Origin: Candidatus Aminicenantota bacterium
GTDB lineage: Bacteria > Acidobacteriota > Aminicenantia > Aminicenantales > Aminicenantaceae
DNA: 37,863 bases
Reading direction: 5' to 3'
NCBI GenBank assembly: GCA_030614685.1
Contig: JAUWTO010000007.1
Location: 1-37,863 of the forward strand
The notes under the pieces are model-generated. The model saw only the letters and a list, made by a program, of their open reading frames with translations. It made no database searches and had not been told where the DNA came from. Below, one piece after another: positions 1 through 6,250 of this stretch (position 1 is the first letter of the stretch; every line of letters starts with the position of its first letter). Position numbers and translations under genes: made by a program.

Positions 1-280
1 ACTGCCATCCTTCCAGGTATCCCTTGCTCATGCCCTTGGGATCCTTCCAGCAGCCGCTGAGCTCTCCCTCTTCACACATGAGAAAGAGGCGGAAGGGTTT
101 CGTCACCCCCTCCCCTATTTCCTGCGCCCGGATTATCTCGGCGCTCTTGAGCCGTTCCTCGATCTCAGGACGGAGTGCGAGTTCTTCCTGCGTGAACTGA
201 GCCAAAGCAGCATCGTTCAGAGCAATTAGAATCATCGGGATGAGAATGAAGGTCAAGCCTGAACGCCGTATCTGTCCCAT
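1..280 (-). CDS. Secreted hypothetical protein, 3' end cut by window edge; paralog of the 1888..2706 protein
   Basis: Reverse strand from ATG at 280 reads MGQIRRSGLTFILIPMILIALNDAALAQFTQEELALRPEIEERLKSAEIIRAQEIGEGVTKPFRLFLMCEEGELSGCWKDPKGMSKGYLEGWQ, with a signal peptide and similarity to ELAELEAYLRSAEIVHVEEGADLGTTDPWNVRL in the 1888..2706 ORF. Confidence 0.65.
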   Translation of the reverse strand, partial: MGQIRRSGLTFILIPMILIALNDAALAQFTQEELALRPEIEERLKSAEIIRAQEIGEGVTKPFRLFLMCEEGELSGCWKDPKGMSKGYLEGWQ

Positions 281-328
281 TACCCCAACCGTTTCTGTTT
301 CATATATTATGTTTTGAATCCGGAAAAT

Positions 329-1765
329 TCAATTTTTTGTTGAATCGGGCTCTCTTTTCGCGGTAAGCCTCTTGTGTTCTTTGGCAATCAGGATCCCGAA
401 TCCGATAAACAGGACACAGAGCACCACATTGAAGGCCGCAAATCCTGCGGTCTTGAACGCCAGATAATTGAGGCCGAGAAACACAAGCAGCGCGGACAGC
501 ACGTCTCCCCCACGGTGAAAGAACGTGTCGATTGCAGCCTTGGCCTTGTATTTTTCTTCTCTCGAAAGAATCAGGAAAAGTGCATGTCGAGTGGTATTCA
601 TCAGGGAATAGTCCGTGCCGTTTTCCATGACCTTAACCCAGAACACCATCATGAGCGAGGCCCCGATGGCAATGGCCATGTATCCTCCCAGCGCGATGAA
701 GGGCAGGACAAAGATGGCTCCTCGAATGCCGATCCAACGGAAGATCCGTGAAACCAGGAATAGCTGGATGATCATGGCCAGGAGATTGAAGTATTTCATC
801 CAGTTGGCCGTGAATTTTCCGATGTATTGTTCCACAGTGAGGCCGTCCAGTTTTCCCATTTCCATGAGCCCATGGGCGGACTCCTCGATATAGTTTCCCA
901 GGATGAATTCTCCGTTCGTGTTGATGAAATTGAGCAGGAGAACAAAAATGGCGATGTACAGCAGATACCTTTTTTTAAAAACCAGCTGGAAGCCTCCCCC
1001 TTTTTCCAGAGGTTTTTCCTTGTCTTCCGGTTCTTCCTCTGGTGCTCCCACCACGCTGGTCTGGGGAGTTTTCACTTTTCCGATCTCTCTGAGGTGGATC
1101 ACCCAGGTCAAGCCGATGCACAGCAGGAGAACGCCTCCGGCCACCAGCATCATTTGATAAACTCCGATGGGCTCGACCAGCCACCCCGCGATAGTGGCTC
1201 CGGAGAATCCACCGAAGGTGGCCCCGAATGCGATCAGCGGAAACAGCCTTTTTCCGGCCTCAAGCGAATACAGGTCGTTGGCAAATCCCCAGAACTGGGC
1301 CACCACCATCACGTTGAAGATCGCCATCCATATAAAGAATATGACCCCCATGGTGGCGGAGGTAATATTCAACAAAGAGAGGAAATAGAAGATGACCAGG
1401 TTGGATATGAAGAACAGGGTTACCCCGGTGATCAATTTTTGGCGCGGGAACCGGGATGCTGTGGCGCTGAAGGCCTTGACAACGAAGATCAACAGAAATG
1501 CGCTGGCAGCATTTAGATAAGCCTTGATGTCGGCGCCCTGCCCACTCAGGATCAAGGCTTCCCGTACGGGTTTGATGATGTAATACGCCGCCAGCAGCAG
1601 ATAGATGTTTAGCGTGAGCAGGATGGCGGTCGTGGCCTCTCCCGGGTATATCACCGTGAAGAGCCGCAGGAATCTGTGAAGGATGCCGGGCGTATCAGTG
1701 CCTTGGGTCATGTTCCCCTCCCATGATCTCAATCCCATCATTTTAAATCCCCGGTTGAATGTCAA
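329..1765 (-). CDS. Npt/Tlc-like ATP:ADP (NTP) carrier / MFS-type membrane protein
   Basis: 478 aa polytopic protein with N-terminal YYIIKPVREALILS typical of the nucleotide carrier family; many hydrophobic segments. Confidence 0.75.
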   Translation of the reverse strand: MTFNRGFKMMGLRSWEGNMTQGTDTPGILHRFLRLFTVIYPGEATTAILLTLNIYLLLAAYYIIKPVREALILSGQGADIKAYLNAASAFLLIFVVKAFSATASRFPRQKLITGVTLFFISNLVIFYFLSLLNITSATMGVIFFIWMAIFNVMVVAQFWGFANDLYSLEAGKRLFPLIAFGATFGGFSGATIAGWLVEPIGVYQMMLVAGGVLLLCIGLTWVIHLREIGKVKTPQTSVVGAPEEEPEDKEKPLEKGGGFQLVFKKRYLLYIAIFVLLLNFINTNGEFILGNYIEESAHGLMEMGKLDGLTVEQYIGKFTANWMKYFNLLAMIIQLFLVSRIFRWIGIRGAIFVLPFIALGGYMAIAIGASLMMVFWVKVMENGTDYSLMNTTRHALFLILSREEKYKAKAAIDTFFHRGGDVLSALLVFLGLNYLAFKTAGFAAFNVVLCVLFIGFGILIAKEHKRLTAKREPDSTKN

Positions 1766-1887: not shown

Positions 1888-2706
1888 TTATTTGAAGGGC
1901 GTGAGCTGGGCGAGCAGCAGGTCCCTGCGCACCAGCAAGGCCTCGATCTCTTCCTCGTTCAGGTAAGCCGCTAACTTTTCACGGACCTCTGATTCGTCAA
2001 GCTGTTTTAAGGCCCGAAGGAGGATGTCTGAGCACTGCTCTACCTCTCGCACCTCGCCCAGGAGTTCATGCCTTTCCTCGAAAGCTTTGGAAAAATCCAC
2101 CCGGCATACTCTGCCGTCATCATTGTGATAGAAGATATCCTCATTGATATCATCCATCCCTGTCTGCCAGTATGTGAGATTGTCGAAAACCAGGATATCC
2201 AGCATATTGCGGTGAAACTGCTCTGTGTCCGGAACGCTTTTTAGACGGTTCAAGGGGGTACACCCCTCCAGGAAGATCTGGAGCGCGCCCGGTGTTCCCT
2301 TTACAGTCCTTTCTATAGTCGGAGGCACGATCGGCATATTCAACAGCTTGCTCAATTCGTAGGCCGCGATCTCATATTTATAGCAGTCCACCATAAAATT
2401 TGGGCGGCAGCGCGGCGCATGTTTGAACATGGCCCTTTTCTTGGTCTTGCCGTCATCCAGCCGCACATTCCAGGGATCCGTGGTCCCGAGGTCCGCCCCT
2501 TCTTCAACGTGAACAATCTCGGCACTTCGCAGATAAGCTTCAAGCTCGGCCAGCTCAGAATCCTGTTGTGCCGTAACCTCAGGAGCCTGACAGAAATACA
2601 AAACACCAATAAATACCGGGATGCATAAGAAGATCAAGCAGTATCTATTTTTTTTCATCATCCCCCCACCAGGGAATAAATACGCTCCCCTGTTCACTTT
2701 TTTCAA
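1888..2706 (-). CDS. Secreted hypothetical protein, possibly kinase-like (HipA/Fam20/PI3-PI4K-like fold)
   Basis: Likely true start is one of the internal Mets (MMKKNRYCLIFLCIPVFIGVLYFC signal sequence, about 2658-2661). Motifs: AMFKH, YKYEIAAYELSKLL, NMLDILVFDNLTYWQTGMDDINEDIFYHNDDGRVCRVDFSKAF resembling an atypical-kinase catalytic/metal-binding region. Confidence 0.5.
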   Translation of the reverse strand: MKKVNRGAYLFPGGGMMKKNRYCLIFLCIPVFIGVLYFCQAPEVTAQQDSELAELEAYLRSAEIVHVEEGADLGTTDPWNVRLDDGKTKKRAMFKHAPRCRPNFMVDCYKYEIAAYELSKLLNMPIVPPTIERTVKGTPGALQIFLEGCTPLNRLKSVPDTEQFHRNMLDILVFDNLTYWQTGMDDINEDIFYHNDDGRVCRVDFSKAFEERHELLGEVREVEQCSDILLRALKQLDESEVREKLAAYLNEEEIEALLVRRDLLLAQLTPFK

Positions 2707-3784
2707 TGATCAATGCAAAGAGCAGATCGTTGTAGAAATCAGAAATTCCGACATCTATCGCCCAGACTCTATCCCCAAAACGGCCAAGCTCCTGCGTTTC
2801 AATATATTCGACATCACGGACCGTATGTCCGATGATCATGTGTTTGGCTTTGTAGGTCGCGAGTACTCTGGTCAATGTAGCGGAATTCCCATTCTCCGGT
2901 TCCCGAGCCCAGCCTCGATACCAGTGTGGGGCTTGAGGATTCGTGACATACGGAGGTGATGATGACAACATCAGGTCTTTTCTTTCTCCTGCTGCCCACT
3001 CGGCAACAGCCCTGAATTCCCTGCGAGCTTCGTTGTTGATCGTTTCCAGGTCTCTCTCCAGGTAATAGTCCTCTACTGGCATGCCTCCATGGACAAACAG
3101 GTTCTCATTGATCTTGATCACCATATTTTTCGTGAGGAGCCATCTGCCATATTCTCTATAGAAGTTTTTGGTATATTCGTCTCTCGTTTTATTATCGCCT
3201 GGCTGTTTCCCTTGTGCCCCGCCTATTTCTTTTTTCCAAAATTGTTCTAGCTTTTCCTCAAGTTTTCCATTAGAGCCATCTGTGGAGCGATATTTTTTTC
3301 GTATATCCAGTTCTTTTTTTTTTATATACGCTGGGGGAAGAAAAGAGAGCAGCTGTCCAGGGGTCAGATATCTCGCCTGATCAAAAACAATGCCAGTGAT
3401 GTTCGCCTCTTCGTGGTTCCCGATCAACACATGCACCATACCGCCGGCAGTTTCGGCCTGCTTCTCCAGCTTCATCAGGAGATCAAACGCCTCTTTGGCT
3501 TCGTCTCCCCTGTCCAGAATATCGCCCAGCTGAACGAGATGTGTTTTTCCTCCGATCCAGTCAAGATTTTCATCGACCAGATCGGTCCCTATCAGGATTT
3601 TCTCAAAGTTGTCGTAATCTCCATGGATATCGGCCACGGCTACGATTTTCTCGACTCCGGACCATTTGCAGGGGATCTTTCCCGCGTGGAGTGGTGCCAG
3701 GACGAGCAGCAGGGACAGAAGGATCAAGACGAGTCTTTTGGGGTGGGTGTGCAGAGTTTTTTTCAAGCGTACCCAGAACGACAT
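2645..3784 (-). CDS. Secreted calcineurin-like phosphoesterase (PPP / Shewanella-like phosphatase type)
   Basis: VADIHGDYDNF, LGDILDRGDEA, LIGNHEEAN, FVHGGM and IIGHTV motifs; N-terminal signal-like hydrophobic segment. Confidence 0.85.
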   Translation of the reverse strand: MSFWVRLKKTLHTHPKRLVLILLSLLLVLAPLHAGKIPCKWSGVEKIVAVADIHGDYDNFEKILIGTDLVDENLDWIGGKTHLVQLGDILDRGDEAKEAFDLLMKLEKQAETAGGMVHVLIGNHEEANITGIVFDQARYLTPGQLLSFLPPAYIKKKELDIRKKYRSTDGSNGKLEEKLEQFWKKEIGGAQGKQPGDNKTRDEYTKNFYREYGRWLLTKNMVIKINENLFVHGGMPVEDYYLERDLETINNEARREFRAVAEWAAGERKDLMLSSSPPYVTNPQAPHWYRGWAREPENGNSATLTRVLATYKAKHMIIGHTVRDVEYIETQELGRFGDRVWAIDVGISDFYNDLLFALIIEKSEQGSVFIPWWGDDEKK

Positions 3785-3899: not shown

Positions 3900-4262
3900 T
3901 TGATAAAAGCTATAGCAGAAATGGAAATCAACCTCAGAGAAAATAACAACATTACCATCATCGATATCACAGGTGAGATCCGGCGCTCAGATGTAATGGA
4001 TGTGACCCTGCATCAGTCAGTAAAAGACCAGCTGGATGATGGAATGCGTAACATCCTCCTGAACCTGAAAAACGTTGAATTCATCGACAGTTTTGGTGTG
4101 GGCGAGATCCTGGCCAGCTATATCTCGACCCAGAACCTGGGCGGGCACCTGAAGCTCAGCAACATTTCGAAAAAGCTCTATGTCGTGTTCCAGATCACCA
4201 TGCTCACCAAAGTACTCGAGATCTTTGATTCCGAAAACTCTGCCCTGGACAGCTTCACCTGA
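3900..4262 (+). CDS. STAS-domain anti-anti-sigma factor-like protein (SpoIIAA/RsbV type)
   Basis: 120 aa; ILLNLKNVEFIDSFGVGEILASY is the STAS phosphoacceptor-serine region. Listed start is TTG; ATG at 3921 is an alternative. Confidence 0.85.
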   Translation: MIKAIAEMEINLRENNNITIIDITGEIRRSDVMDVTLHQSVKDQLDDGMRNILLNLKNVEFIDSFGVGEILASYISTQNLGGHLKLSNISKKLYVVFQITMLTKVLEIFDSENSALDSFT

Positions 4263-4298: not shown

Positions 4299-4556
4299 AT
4301 GGAGAGTAGCCGTCTCTACCGCCTGCTGTCTCGCATCGTAGACATAAGGCAGGCTGAAGAAACCATTGCCCTCCTCCTTTTTGCGTATTTCTTCCTGATC
4401 ACAGCCCCTCATACCATCATCAAGGCTGTCCGTTATGCCGAGATCCTGGATAAATTCGAGGGGATCCAGGGGCTCCCCCTGGGTTACCTGCTGGCAGCCC
4501 TGGTTACGGGTCAGGATGTGGTTTTGCTTGAATTTAGTCCAATGTACAGATTATAA
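4299..4556 (+). pseudogene. N-terminal remnant of a nucleotide-carrier/MFS gene
   Basis: 85 aa; EETIALLLFAYFFLITAPHTIIKAVRYAEIL aligns with GEATTAILLTLNIYLLLAAYYIIKPVREALIL of the intact 329..1765 gene, then stops after a short unrelated tail. Confidence 0.6.
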
Positions 4557-4573: not shown

Positions 4574-6250
4574 ATGTCTAAAATATATGTGTACCCCAAA
4601 AAAGGTGACGATTTCCACATCAAACTGGGAGATTCCCAGGTAAGCTTGGGACGCTCGGCCGACAACGACATCCCCCTGCCGGATCCGTTCTGCTCCAGCA
4701 ACCATGCCATCATCGTCCCCAAGGGCGAGAGATACTTCATTAAAGACAACAACAGCAAGAACGGCGTGTTTCTCAACGGCAAGAAGATCGAGAAGGATCT
4801 GGAGCTTAAGAAAGGAGACGAGATCCTTCTGGGGTCCACCCGGATCGTATACGACCTGAAGATCGACACCAAAGTAGAAGTCACGGACGAGCCGTCGTCA
4901 TCCGCCAACATAAACACCATCATGCATCTGAAAGACGTGCTTCGCAAACCGGATATCAGCACGACCATCCGCGCCGACGCCAAGTCCCTGGATATAGAGG
5001 CGATCAAGACCGAACACAAGGAAGCCTCTGTCATCAGCGAAGTTACCAAGGCCTTGATCCTGCACAAGCCGTTGGACGAATTGGTGGAGCACATCATGGA
5101 CCTCATATGTGAGCGCATCCCGATGGACCGCGGCATCCTGATGCTGAGGGATGAGACCCCGGCCCAGCTCGATCCCAAGGTCGTTCGGATCAACAACAAA
5201 CAGCTGATGAATCAGAAGATTCAGGTCAGCCAGAGCATCATCAACACCGCCGTGGATCGCCACTCCTCGATCCTCATTTCCGACGTCCAGTCTGACACCC
5301 GGTTCAAGGCCCAGGACAGCATCCTCAAGCTCAATATCCAGTCCGCCATGTGTGTGCCTCTCTGGAACAACAAGGAGATCATCGGGATCATCTACTCCGA
5401 CCGTATTGCCACGCCGGAGCAGTTTTCCAATAACGACCTTCGCCTGCTCACACTCCTGTCGAATGTGGCGGCTGTGAAGATCGAAAACGCCGTCCTGTTC
5501 CAGCAAGCCCTTGAGCAAGAGAAGTCCAAAAAGGAACTGTCCCTGGCCGAAGATATCCAGAGGGGCCTCCTACCCCAAACAAATCCTGAGGTCGAGGGAT
5601 TTGAGATTGTCGGTATCAACATCCCCTGCCTCCAGATCGGGGGCGATTACTATGACTTCCTCGAGATCGATGAGGAGCGGATGGGGATCGTGATCGCGGA
5701 TGTCTCGGGGAAGGGAGTGGGGGCCTCACTCCTCATGGCCTCCCTCAGAGCAGCCCTGCAGACCGAGGTCCATACCGGATACAACCTCGACGAGATGGCC
5801 GCCCGCCTGAATAACCTGATCCACCGGAGCACCGCGCCCAACCTGTTCATCAGTTTTTTCTACTGCGAGCTCAACACCAAGACCGGAGACTTGCGCTACC
5901 TCAACTCCGGACACAATCCGCCCCTCATCCTGGACAAAAAGAAGAAAATCACACACCTGGAAAGTTGTGGGCTCTGCCTGGGCATGTTTCCGGCCCAAGA
6001 CTATGTGTCAAGTGTCATCAAGCTGAATCCAGGTGACACAGCCCTCCTCTATACCGACGGACTGACCGAGAGCCGGAACAAAGAGAATCAGGAATTAACC
6101 GATGAAGGACTGGGCAAATTACTCAAAAAACACCAGAAGCTGCCGGCCGAAAAACTCATGCAGACGATCTTCGAGGAGCTCGATGCCTTTACGGATGGGG
6201 CCGAGCCCATGGATGATATGACCCTGGTCATCATCAAACGGATCGGGTAA
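4574..6250 (+). CDS. FHA-GAF-PP2C (SpoIIE/RsbU-type) serine phosphatase
   Basis: FHA: SLGRSADNDIPLPDPFCSSNHAII...NSKNGVFLNG. GAF central region. PP2C: GGDYYDFLEID, IADVSGKGVGASLLMA, GHNPPLIL, LLYTDGLTES. Confidence 0.93.
   Translation: MSKIYVYPKKGDDFHIKLGDSQVSLGRSADNDIPLPDPFCSSNHAIIVPKGERYFIKDNNSKNGVFLNGKKIEKDLELKKGDEILLGSTRIVYDLKIDTKVEVTDEPSSSANINTIMHLKDVLRKPDISTTIRADAKSLDIEAIKTEHKEASVISEVTKALILHKPLDELVEHIMDLICERIPMDRGILMLRDETPAQLDPKVVRINNKQLMNQKIQVSQSIINTAVDRHSSILISDVQSDTRFKAQDSILKLNIQSAMCVPLWNNKEIIGIIYSDRIATPEQFSNNDLRLLTLLSNVAAVKIENAVLFQQALEQEKSKKELSLAEDIQRGLLPQTNPEVEGFEIVGINIPCLQIGGDYYDFLEIDEERMGIVIADVSGKGVGASLLMASLRAALQTEVHTGYNLDEMAARLNNLIHRSTAPNLFISFFYCELNTKTGDLRYLNSGHNPPLILDKKKKITHLESCGLCLGMFPAQDYVSSVIKLNPGDTALLYTDGLTESRNKENQELTDEGLGKLLKKHQKLPAEKLMQTIFEELDAFTDGAEPMDDMTLVIIKRIG

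Follow-up and report, generated by a model that had tools for sequence, protein, structure and literature searches.

The FAM20 kinases, Golgi enzymes of the secretory pathway that phosphorylate proteins secreted by animals, are among the closest described counterparts of the locus reported here. A recent network of kinase-like proteins regards them as restricted to eukaryotes or metazoans (PMC9758233). Within this group, FAM20A is a pseudokinase that binds ATP and activates FAM20C (PMC7948968, PMC5413348). In a full-text search of the open-licence literature, neither the Fam20 structure/evolution paper nor the review was found to discuss homologs of FAM20 in bacteria. In the CotH module of Bacillus, an atypical kinase likewise phosphorylates proteins of a bacterial surface structure; CotH acts in spore-coat assembly, and the abstract of that report names neither a phosphatase nor a nucleotide transporter dedicated to it (PMC7821199). 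A PPP phosphatase of Shewanella, the described relative of the phosphatase considered below, was characterised as Tyr-specific (PMC535813). The ATP/ADP-type transporters (NTTs) of parasites and plastids take up ATP; for free-living bacteria, Major et al. 2017 (PMC5381601) described the roles of NTTs as unknown.

We analysed a window of 37,863 nucleotides in which a gene for a kinase-fold protein (K1, of a family that we call K) overlaps a phosphatase gene (P) beside an NTT gene (Table 1). The window corresponds to contig 221 in a metagenome-assembled genome of 2.9 Mb that contains five K matches and one P match, and almost every named relative of this genome belongs to Candidatus Aminicenantes (phylum Acidobacteriota). 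The original prediction had described K1 and P as co-directional, overlapping ORFs, and both were found on the same strand where it had placed them. It had passed over the transporter that adjoins K1 (T in Table 1), which is the most informative neighbour. The likely start of K1 is ATG 2661 rather than TTG 2706; this ATG follows a G-rich stretch, and the sequence on the minus strand is GGTGGGGGG-ATG-ATG-AAA. Measured from ATG 2661 the overlap with P, whose stop codon lies at 2645-2647, is 17 nt. Window positions 1-789 have a counterpart of 86% DNA identity on contig C84 of the same assembly (L036:1-789), where K2 and K3 genes follow in full; this contig probably stems from a related strain binned together with the genome, or else represents a second copy. 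We propose, with a probability of roughly 0.6, that the locus encodes a reversible extracytoplasmic phosphorylation system to which nucleotide is supplied through the NTT, with K1 as a probable pseudokinase regulator. The pair had not been recognised as a described bacterial system, and our full-text search of the open-licence literature likewise found no description of it or of a kinase-NTT system.

Table 1. Features of the locus in the window.
Feature	Position	Strand	Description
K1	1888..2661	-	FAM20-like kinase-fold protein, predicted exported; ORF extendable to TTG 2706
K1 residue codons	Lys95 2422-2424; Glu112 2371-2373; Asp190 2137-2139; Asp204 2095-2097	-	
P	2645..3784	-	Shewanella-like PPP phosphatase (Shelph type), predicted exported; PF00149 2.8e-12
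T	329..1765	-	short single-domain NTT, TLC ATP/ADP-type transporter, 478 codons; PF03219 2.5e-14
K2-type paralog	2..280	-	N-terminal fragment ending at contig edge; signal peptide, AQFTQEE mature start, GCWKDPKG nucleotide Lys
S	3900..4262	+	STAS-domain (anti-anti-sigma type) gene, divergent from P; PF01740 9e-14
NTT-HEAT remnant	4299..4556	+	transporter remnant, 85 aa; position holds intact ~820 aa gene in relatives
E	4574..6250	+	FHA-GAF-SpoIIE (PP2C-type) phosphatase, flanking partner-switching module; syntenic in 14 loci

The kinase-like fold suspected for K1 was borne out by structure prediction combined with Foldseek and profile searches, in which FAM20 kinases came out on top. The AlphaFold2 model of K1 showed a kinase fold (mean pLDDT 91.2, pTM 0.86), and ranks 1-8 of a Foldseek search against the PDB were all FAM20 kinases, with a best E of 2.7e-7. 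For the K2 model (pLDDT 92.7) the Golgi casein kinase came first at 2.8e-9, followed by PI4K/PI3K. Query-normalised TM-scores of K1 and K2 against FAM20 kinases were 0.54-0.59. Profile searches matched FAM20A at 1e-8 (alignment A1) and 1.7e-6 (alignment A2), and FAM20B (xylosylkinase) was also among the matches. Pfam returned no match for K1, and in a Pfam/NCBIfam scan of K no family reached its cut-off except PF00454 (PI3_PI4_kinase), for which one K2 scored 27.2 bits against a gathering value of 27.1 and the remaining K fell below. Since the best K2 reached 19.4 bits, and K from outside Aminicenantales 18.8 bits, against the Pfam Fam20C gathering threshold of 26.8, we describe K as FAM20-like without assigning it to FAM20. 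Two other assignments were tried and rejected. K2 is detectably similar to the SCO1664 family (TIGR03843; 2.6e-13) at 50 bits, but K scores of 30-50 bits against the NCBIfam cut-off of 172 do not make it a member, and the best score for a HipA-like kinase (PF20613) was 22.3 against a gathering value of 27. K resembles FAM20A, FAM20B, FAM20C and the Golgi casein kinase in fold, nucleotide Lys, DFG-like Asp, predicted export and the need for nucleotide outside the cytoplasm that export would bring. It differs from FAM20 in being bacterial, in its structural-alignment identity of ~15%, in a PI3K-like D-R-[TH]-x-x-N loop and in adjoining, or being fused to, a phosphatase.

P had been credited with all PPP metal motifs, and ADIHGD, GDILDRG, GNHE, HGG and the late His were indeed all present. 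An alignment of 24 orthologs (A3) showed D52, H54, D88, D91-R92, N123-H124-E125, H232-G233-G234 and H320 to be invariant; the window copy has ADxHG instead of GDxHG. P also has the insert that separates GNHE from HGG. In profile searches it matched the Shewanella PPP tyrosine phosphatase (1v73/2z72/2zbm) at ~1e-53 (7e-54), as against 8.5e-5 for the Rhizobiales-like phosphatase. As judged from these motifs and matches, P fits the Shelph group of phosphatases (the group of PMC535813). With Shelph/SLP (PDB 1v73, 2z72) it shares the PPP motifs, the GNHE-HGG insert and an (I/L/V)D(S/T)G-type motif, which reads IDVG in the window, and it differs in overlapping or being fused to a kinase-fold protein and in its linkage to an NTT. 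P was also considered as ApaH or PrpE and rejected, since the scores were far under cut-off and the Shewanella phosphatase was far better. The substrate could instead be an envelope sugar, glycan or lipid, in which case K would be FAM20B-like or PI4K-like, P a matching phosphomonoesterase and the NTT the supplier of nucleotide. This would suit the additional matches of K2 to PI4KII/PI3K folds, its borderline PF00454 score (27.2 vs 27.1 bits) and the presence of FAM20B among the profile matches. We consider it unlikely, although worth serious attention, as the Tyr specificity of the Shewanella relative (PMC535813) points to a protein substrate and the Golgi casein kinases, as top fold matches, argue against a sugar or lipid.

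Returning to the proposed phosphorylation system, we compared the active-site Lys, catalytic loop and metal Asp across the K family. The Lys in AMFKH is retained as K1 Lys95 (86% Lys and 13% Arg among K1 orthologs), and the postulated DFG-like metal Asp is Asp204 in VDFSKAF, found in 100% of K1 orthologs, where the family motif is VDFSEAF with the Asp invariant. However, the 'catalytic Asp' assigned within MDDINEDIFY is not the canonical catalytic residue, and the N-x-D-R-x-x-x-N loop is absent in Aminicenantales K1 orthologs; D190, which aligns with the metal-binding loop Asn, is present in 80% of them. In K2/K3 the WK, the helix-C Glu, N-x-D-R-[TH]-x-x-N and IDHSRSF are nearly invariant, so that D-R-[TH] is present there and D-R is absent from K1. 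A canonical active kinase was therefore rejected for Aminicenantales K1, the D-R loop being missing in essentially all orthologs. The P-adjacent or P-fused K of other Acidobacteriota families mostly carry the full motif (NxDRNxxN ... IDHSRAF), and the loss of D-R in K1 thus looks derived. In the tree, K1 (including the Aminicenantales fusions) was exactly monophyletic and K2/K3 likewise, with support of 1.0; odd ORFs at L047 and L050 arose from overlapping or frameshifted reading, and L047 was given a new label from its motif and its place in the tree. Since K1 has lost the D-R loop, which is retained in K2/K3 and in the P-linked K of other families, Aminicenantales K1 is probably a pseudokinase or a non-canonical enzyme, like FAM20A beside FAM20C. 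The parallel, a pseudokinase paralog next to active paralogs, would be one of functional analogy, as the residues missing from K1 differ from those of FAM20A (Gln258). By their motifs, the tandem paralogs K2/K3 are probably the actual writers, of which the window holds only the fragment at its edge.

Near-relative pairs gave dN/dS values of ~0.2-0.3 for K1, 0.28 for P, 0.34 for the NTT, 0.16 for K2 and 0.43 for one fusion pair, and the low value for K1 indicates that it is constrained despite its lost catalytic loop. The pairing of K1 and P is not due to chance: both genes and their order are conserved across genomes and evolve under purifying constraint. The writer/eraser pair outside the cytoplasm that had been postulated stands in its kinase-like fold, conserved nucleotide residues and linkage to P, whereas the window K1 lacks a canonical catalytic loop. 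Three outcomes named as refuting it (a non-kinase fold, lost nucleotide residues and no conserved linkage to P) were checked, and none appeared. Some kinase-fold pseudokinases, such as SelO, AMPylate proteins. K1 might similarly be an enzyme of another chemistry, AMPylation or the like, that is undone by P, which would suit the combination of a lost catalytic D-R with a retained nucleotide Lys and retained Asp at both metal-site positions. We regard this as distinctly unlikely: a SelO relationship of K1 was not detected, P is a phosphomonoesterase-type enzyme, and the P-linked K outside Aminicenantales has an ordinary kinase motif.

For the phosphorylation system that we favour, the compartment is central. 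Signal peptides, a covarying Cys pair and the P-K fusions place K and P outside the cytoplasm. The export signals originally noted were found in both K1 and P as a hydrophobic Sec-type segment at the N-terminus. Judged by a hydrophobicity heuristic, not SignalP, such a segment is present in 26/32 K1, 46/57 K2/3, 25/31 P and 4/4 fusions, compared with 62/321 control ORFs. A typical A-QFTPEE mature start is common to K2 proteins. Among 36 K1, the pair Cys182/Cys219 was complete in 29, missing altogether in 6 (including the window copy) and discordant in 1, as expected of a disulfide in an oxidising compartment. The fusions imply that K and P share one compartment. Bacterial periplasms are usually taken to be without ATP, so that exported kinases would face a supply problem.

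The NTT offers a candidate source of this nucleotide. The window NTT scored 53.4 bits for PF03219 against a gathering value of 21 and matched the ADP,ATP carrier 9j3n at 1.4e-13, and also 9j3j; NTTs of this type are only distantly similar to characterised NTTs. Long forms scored 63 bits for PF03219 and carry HEAT_2, and NTT-HEAT-type ORFs also occur on contigs C197 and C19 of the window genome. Outside Aminicenantales the NTTs are long forms with HEAT, often with cNMP domains, the same fusions as those of free-living bacteria in Major et al. 2017 (PMC5381601). The described NTTs mediate uptake in parasites and plastids, whereas the cluster NTT is coupled to predicted exported kinases and a phosphatase. 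Across 396 Acidobacteriota genomes we detected K in 79, NTT in 150 (E<=1e-10) and P in 85 (E<=1e-15). NTT was found in 79/79 K genomes and in 71/317 without K (Fisher p 2e-41, ignoring phylogeny), so that no K gene occurred without an NTT, and many K and NTT genes adjoin. The 71 genomes with NTT but without K indicate that NTTs have other roles too. One Aminicenantales genome without K or P contains a short cluster-type NTT (G271:C12:394311-395693; E 2e-206), possibly an intermediate of loss. The same three partners could also serve nucleotide salvage, with the NTT importing, P hydrolysing periplasmic nucleotides and the kinase-fold proteins binding or sensing extracellular ATP. ATP uptake by the characterised parasite and plastid NTTs (PMC5381601) and a weak ApaH resemblance of P are compatible with salvage, but we find it rather remote: K2/K3 keep a full catalytic site, P is far closer to protein phosphatases than to ApaH, a P-kinase fusion would make little sense for it, and a locus contains several kinases in tandem.

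Phosphorylation by linked partners is further suggested by their gene order. In 41 fetched Aminicenantales loci the recurrent order was P-K1-NTT(short)-K2-K3, with STAS, NTT-HEAT (1-2 copies) and SpoIIE on the opposite side. All 36 P genes in these loci had K directly downstream, mostly overlapping, or fused, and the linkage first seen in the window is thus conserved. A short NTT lay <=1.5 kb from K and co-directional in 26/41. P and K1 formed a single ORF of 614-633 aa in 4 of the 41, and further fusions were present in the separately fetched L075-L152; outside Aminicenantales, P-K fusions (L201-L206 and L226) occupy several branches separate from the Aminicenantales fusions. When the best-scoring K of each of 21 outside families was considered, 10/21 were within 10 kb of P and/or NTT and 11/21 were not near either, and another linked K copy was present in several more families (e.g. 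f36, f37, f39, f42). The K/P co-occurrence check across the 396 genomes detected P in 65/79 K genomes compared with 20/317 without K (Fisher p 2e-42, ignoring phylogeny); P was undetected in 14/79 K genomes, some of them incomplete. Among 60 related genomes 45 had K, and the other 15 were without K, P or short NTT (Fisher p 3e-10 and 9e-9, phylogeny ignored). Losses were scattered, with genera g30, g23, g7 and g5 each containing one species with K, P and NTT and another with none. That K, P and NTT are merely neighbours through an inherited stable gene order is barely credible, for although the co-occurrence statistics ignore phylogeny and many outside families have unlinked K genes, fusions arose on several branches, joint presence and absence recur inside single genera, and at least 10 families show K linked to P/NTT under differing gene arrangements. 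K-P-K is present in an Acidobacteriota genome that is complete in a single contig of 7.48 Mb and may belong to a cultured species (L209; G181:C1:6858000-6876000). Two K2-type genes were found in a metagenome-assembled genome labelled Chloroflexi (RBG_13_53_26; L133), perhaps through transfer or mis-binning.

Gene content and order, fusions, co-occurrence, export signals, predicted fold and motif retention or loss are the observations at hand, and reversible extracytoplasmic phosphorylation with NTT supply is the most economical reading in which all three partners have a part. From them we infer catalytic activity, a phospho-substrate, the substrate and direction of the NTT and a regulatory role for K1, as follows. 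The Sec-exported FAM20-like K2/K3, and elsewhere also the P-linked or P-fused K, would phosphorylate envelope or secreted proteins or glycans, with the nucleotide acting as the phosphate donor. The NTT encoded between K2/K3 and P would move ATP out, probably in exchange for ADP, and the exported Shewanella-like P would take the phosphate off again. Aminicenantales K1, with its nucleotide and metal residues kept, probably recruits or regulates P and/or K2/K3 as FAM20A does FAM20C. The system would then work like luminal FAM20 phosphorylation, of which no description as a bacterial system is known to us. More tentatively, and at slightly under even odds, Acidobacteriota may possess a self-contained extracytoplasmic system of an ATP-exporting or ATP/ADP-exchanging NTT, FAM20-like kinases, a phosphatase and a tuning pseudokinase, and powering it may be an ancestral role of NTTs in the free-living bacteria of the phylum. 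The K/NTT pairing brings FAM20-like kinases into a bacterial phylum and provides a concrete hypothesis for the question that Major et al. 2017 (PMC5381601) left on NTT function in free-living bacteria. If true, the system would be a bacterial counterpart of Golgi-lumen phosphorylation, and the natural kinase-phosphatase fusions make writer, eraser and substrate directly testable.

Regulatory genes flank the cluster. The STAS gene was syntenic in 25/41 loci, and an RsbW/SpoIIAB-like HATPase_c_2 gene was present in 24 loci, mostly directly convergent to the last K (e.g. L043:5572-6009, L041:4814-5314). STAS, HATPase and SpoIIE make up a full partner-switching set around the cluster, linked to it by synteny only, that may control its expression or the NTT. 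A gene for an SdiA-regulated/phytase-like lipoprotein adjoins K in the NTT-K2 interval (L043:8659-9522 and 11 other loci) and is a candidate substrate or phospho-handling partner. In one family (L047, L052, L061, L062, L069), phosphate-transport permease and PhoU-like genes, identified from sequence without a Pfam scan, lie ~1.6-6 kb from the K cluster.
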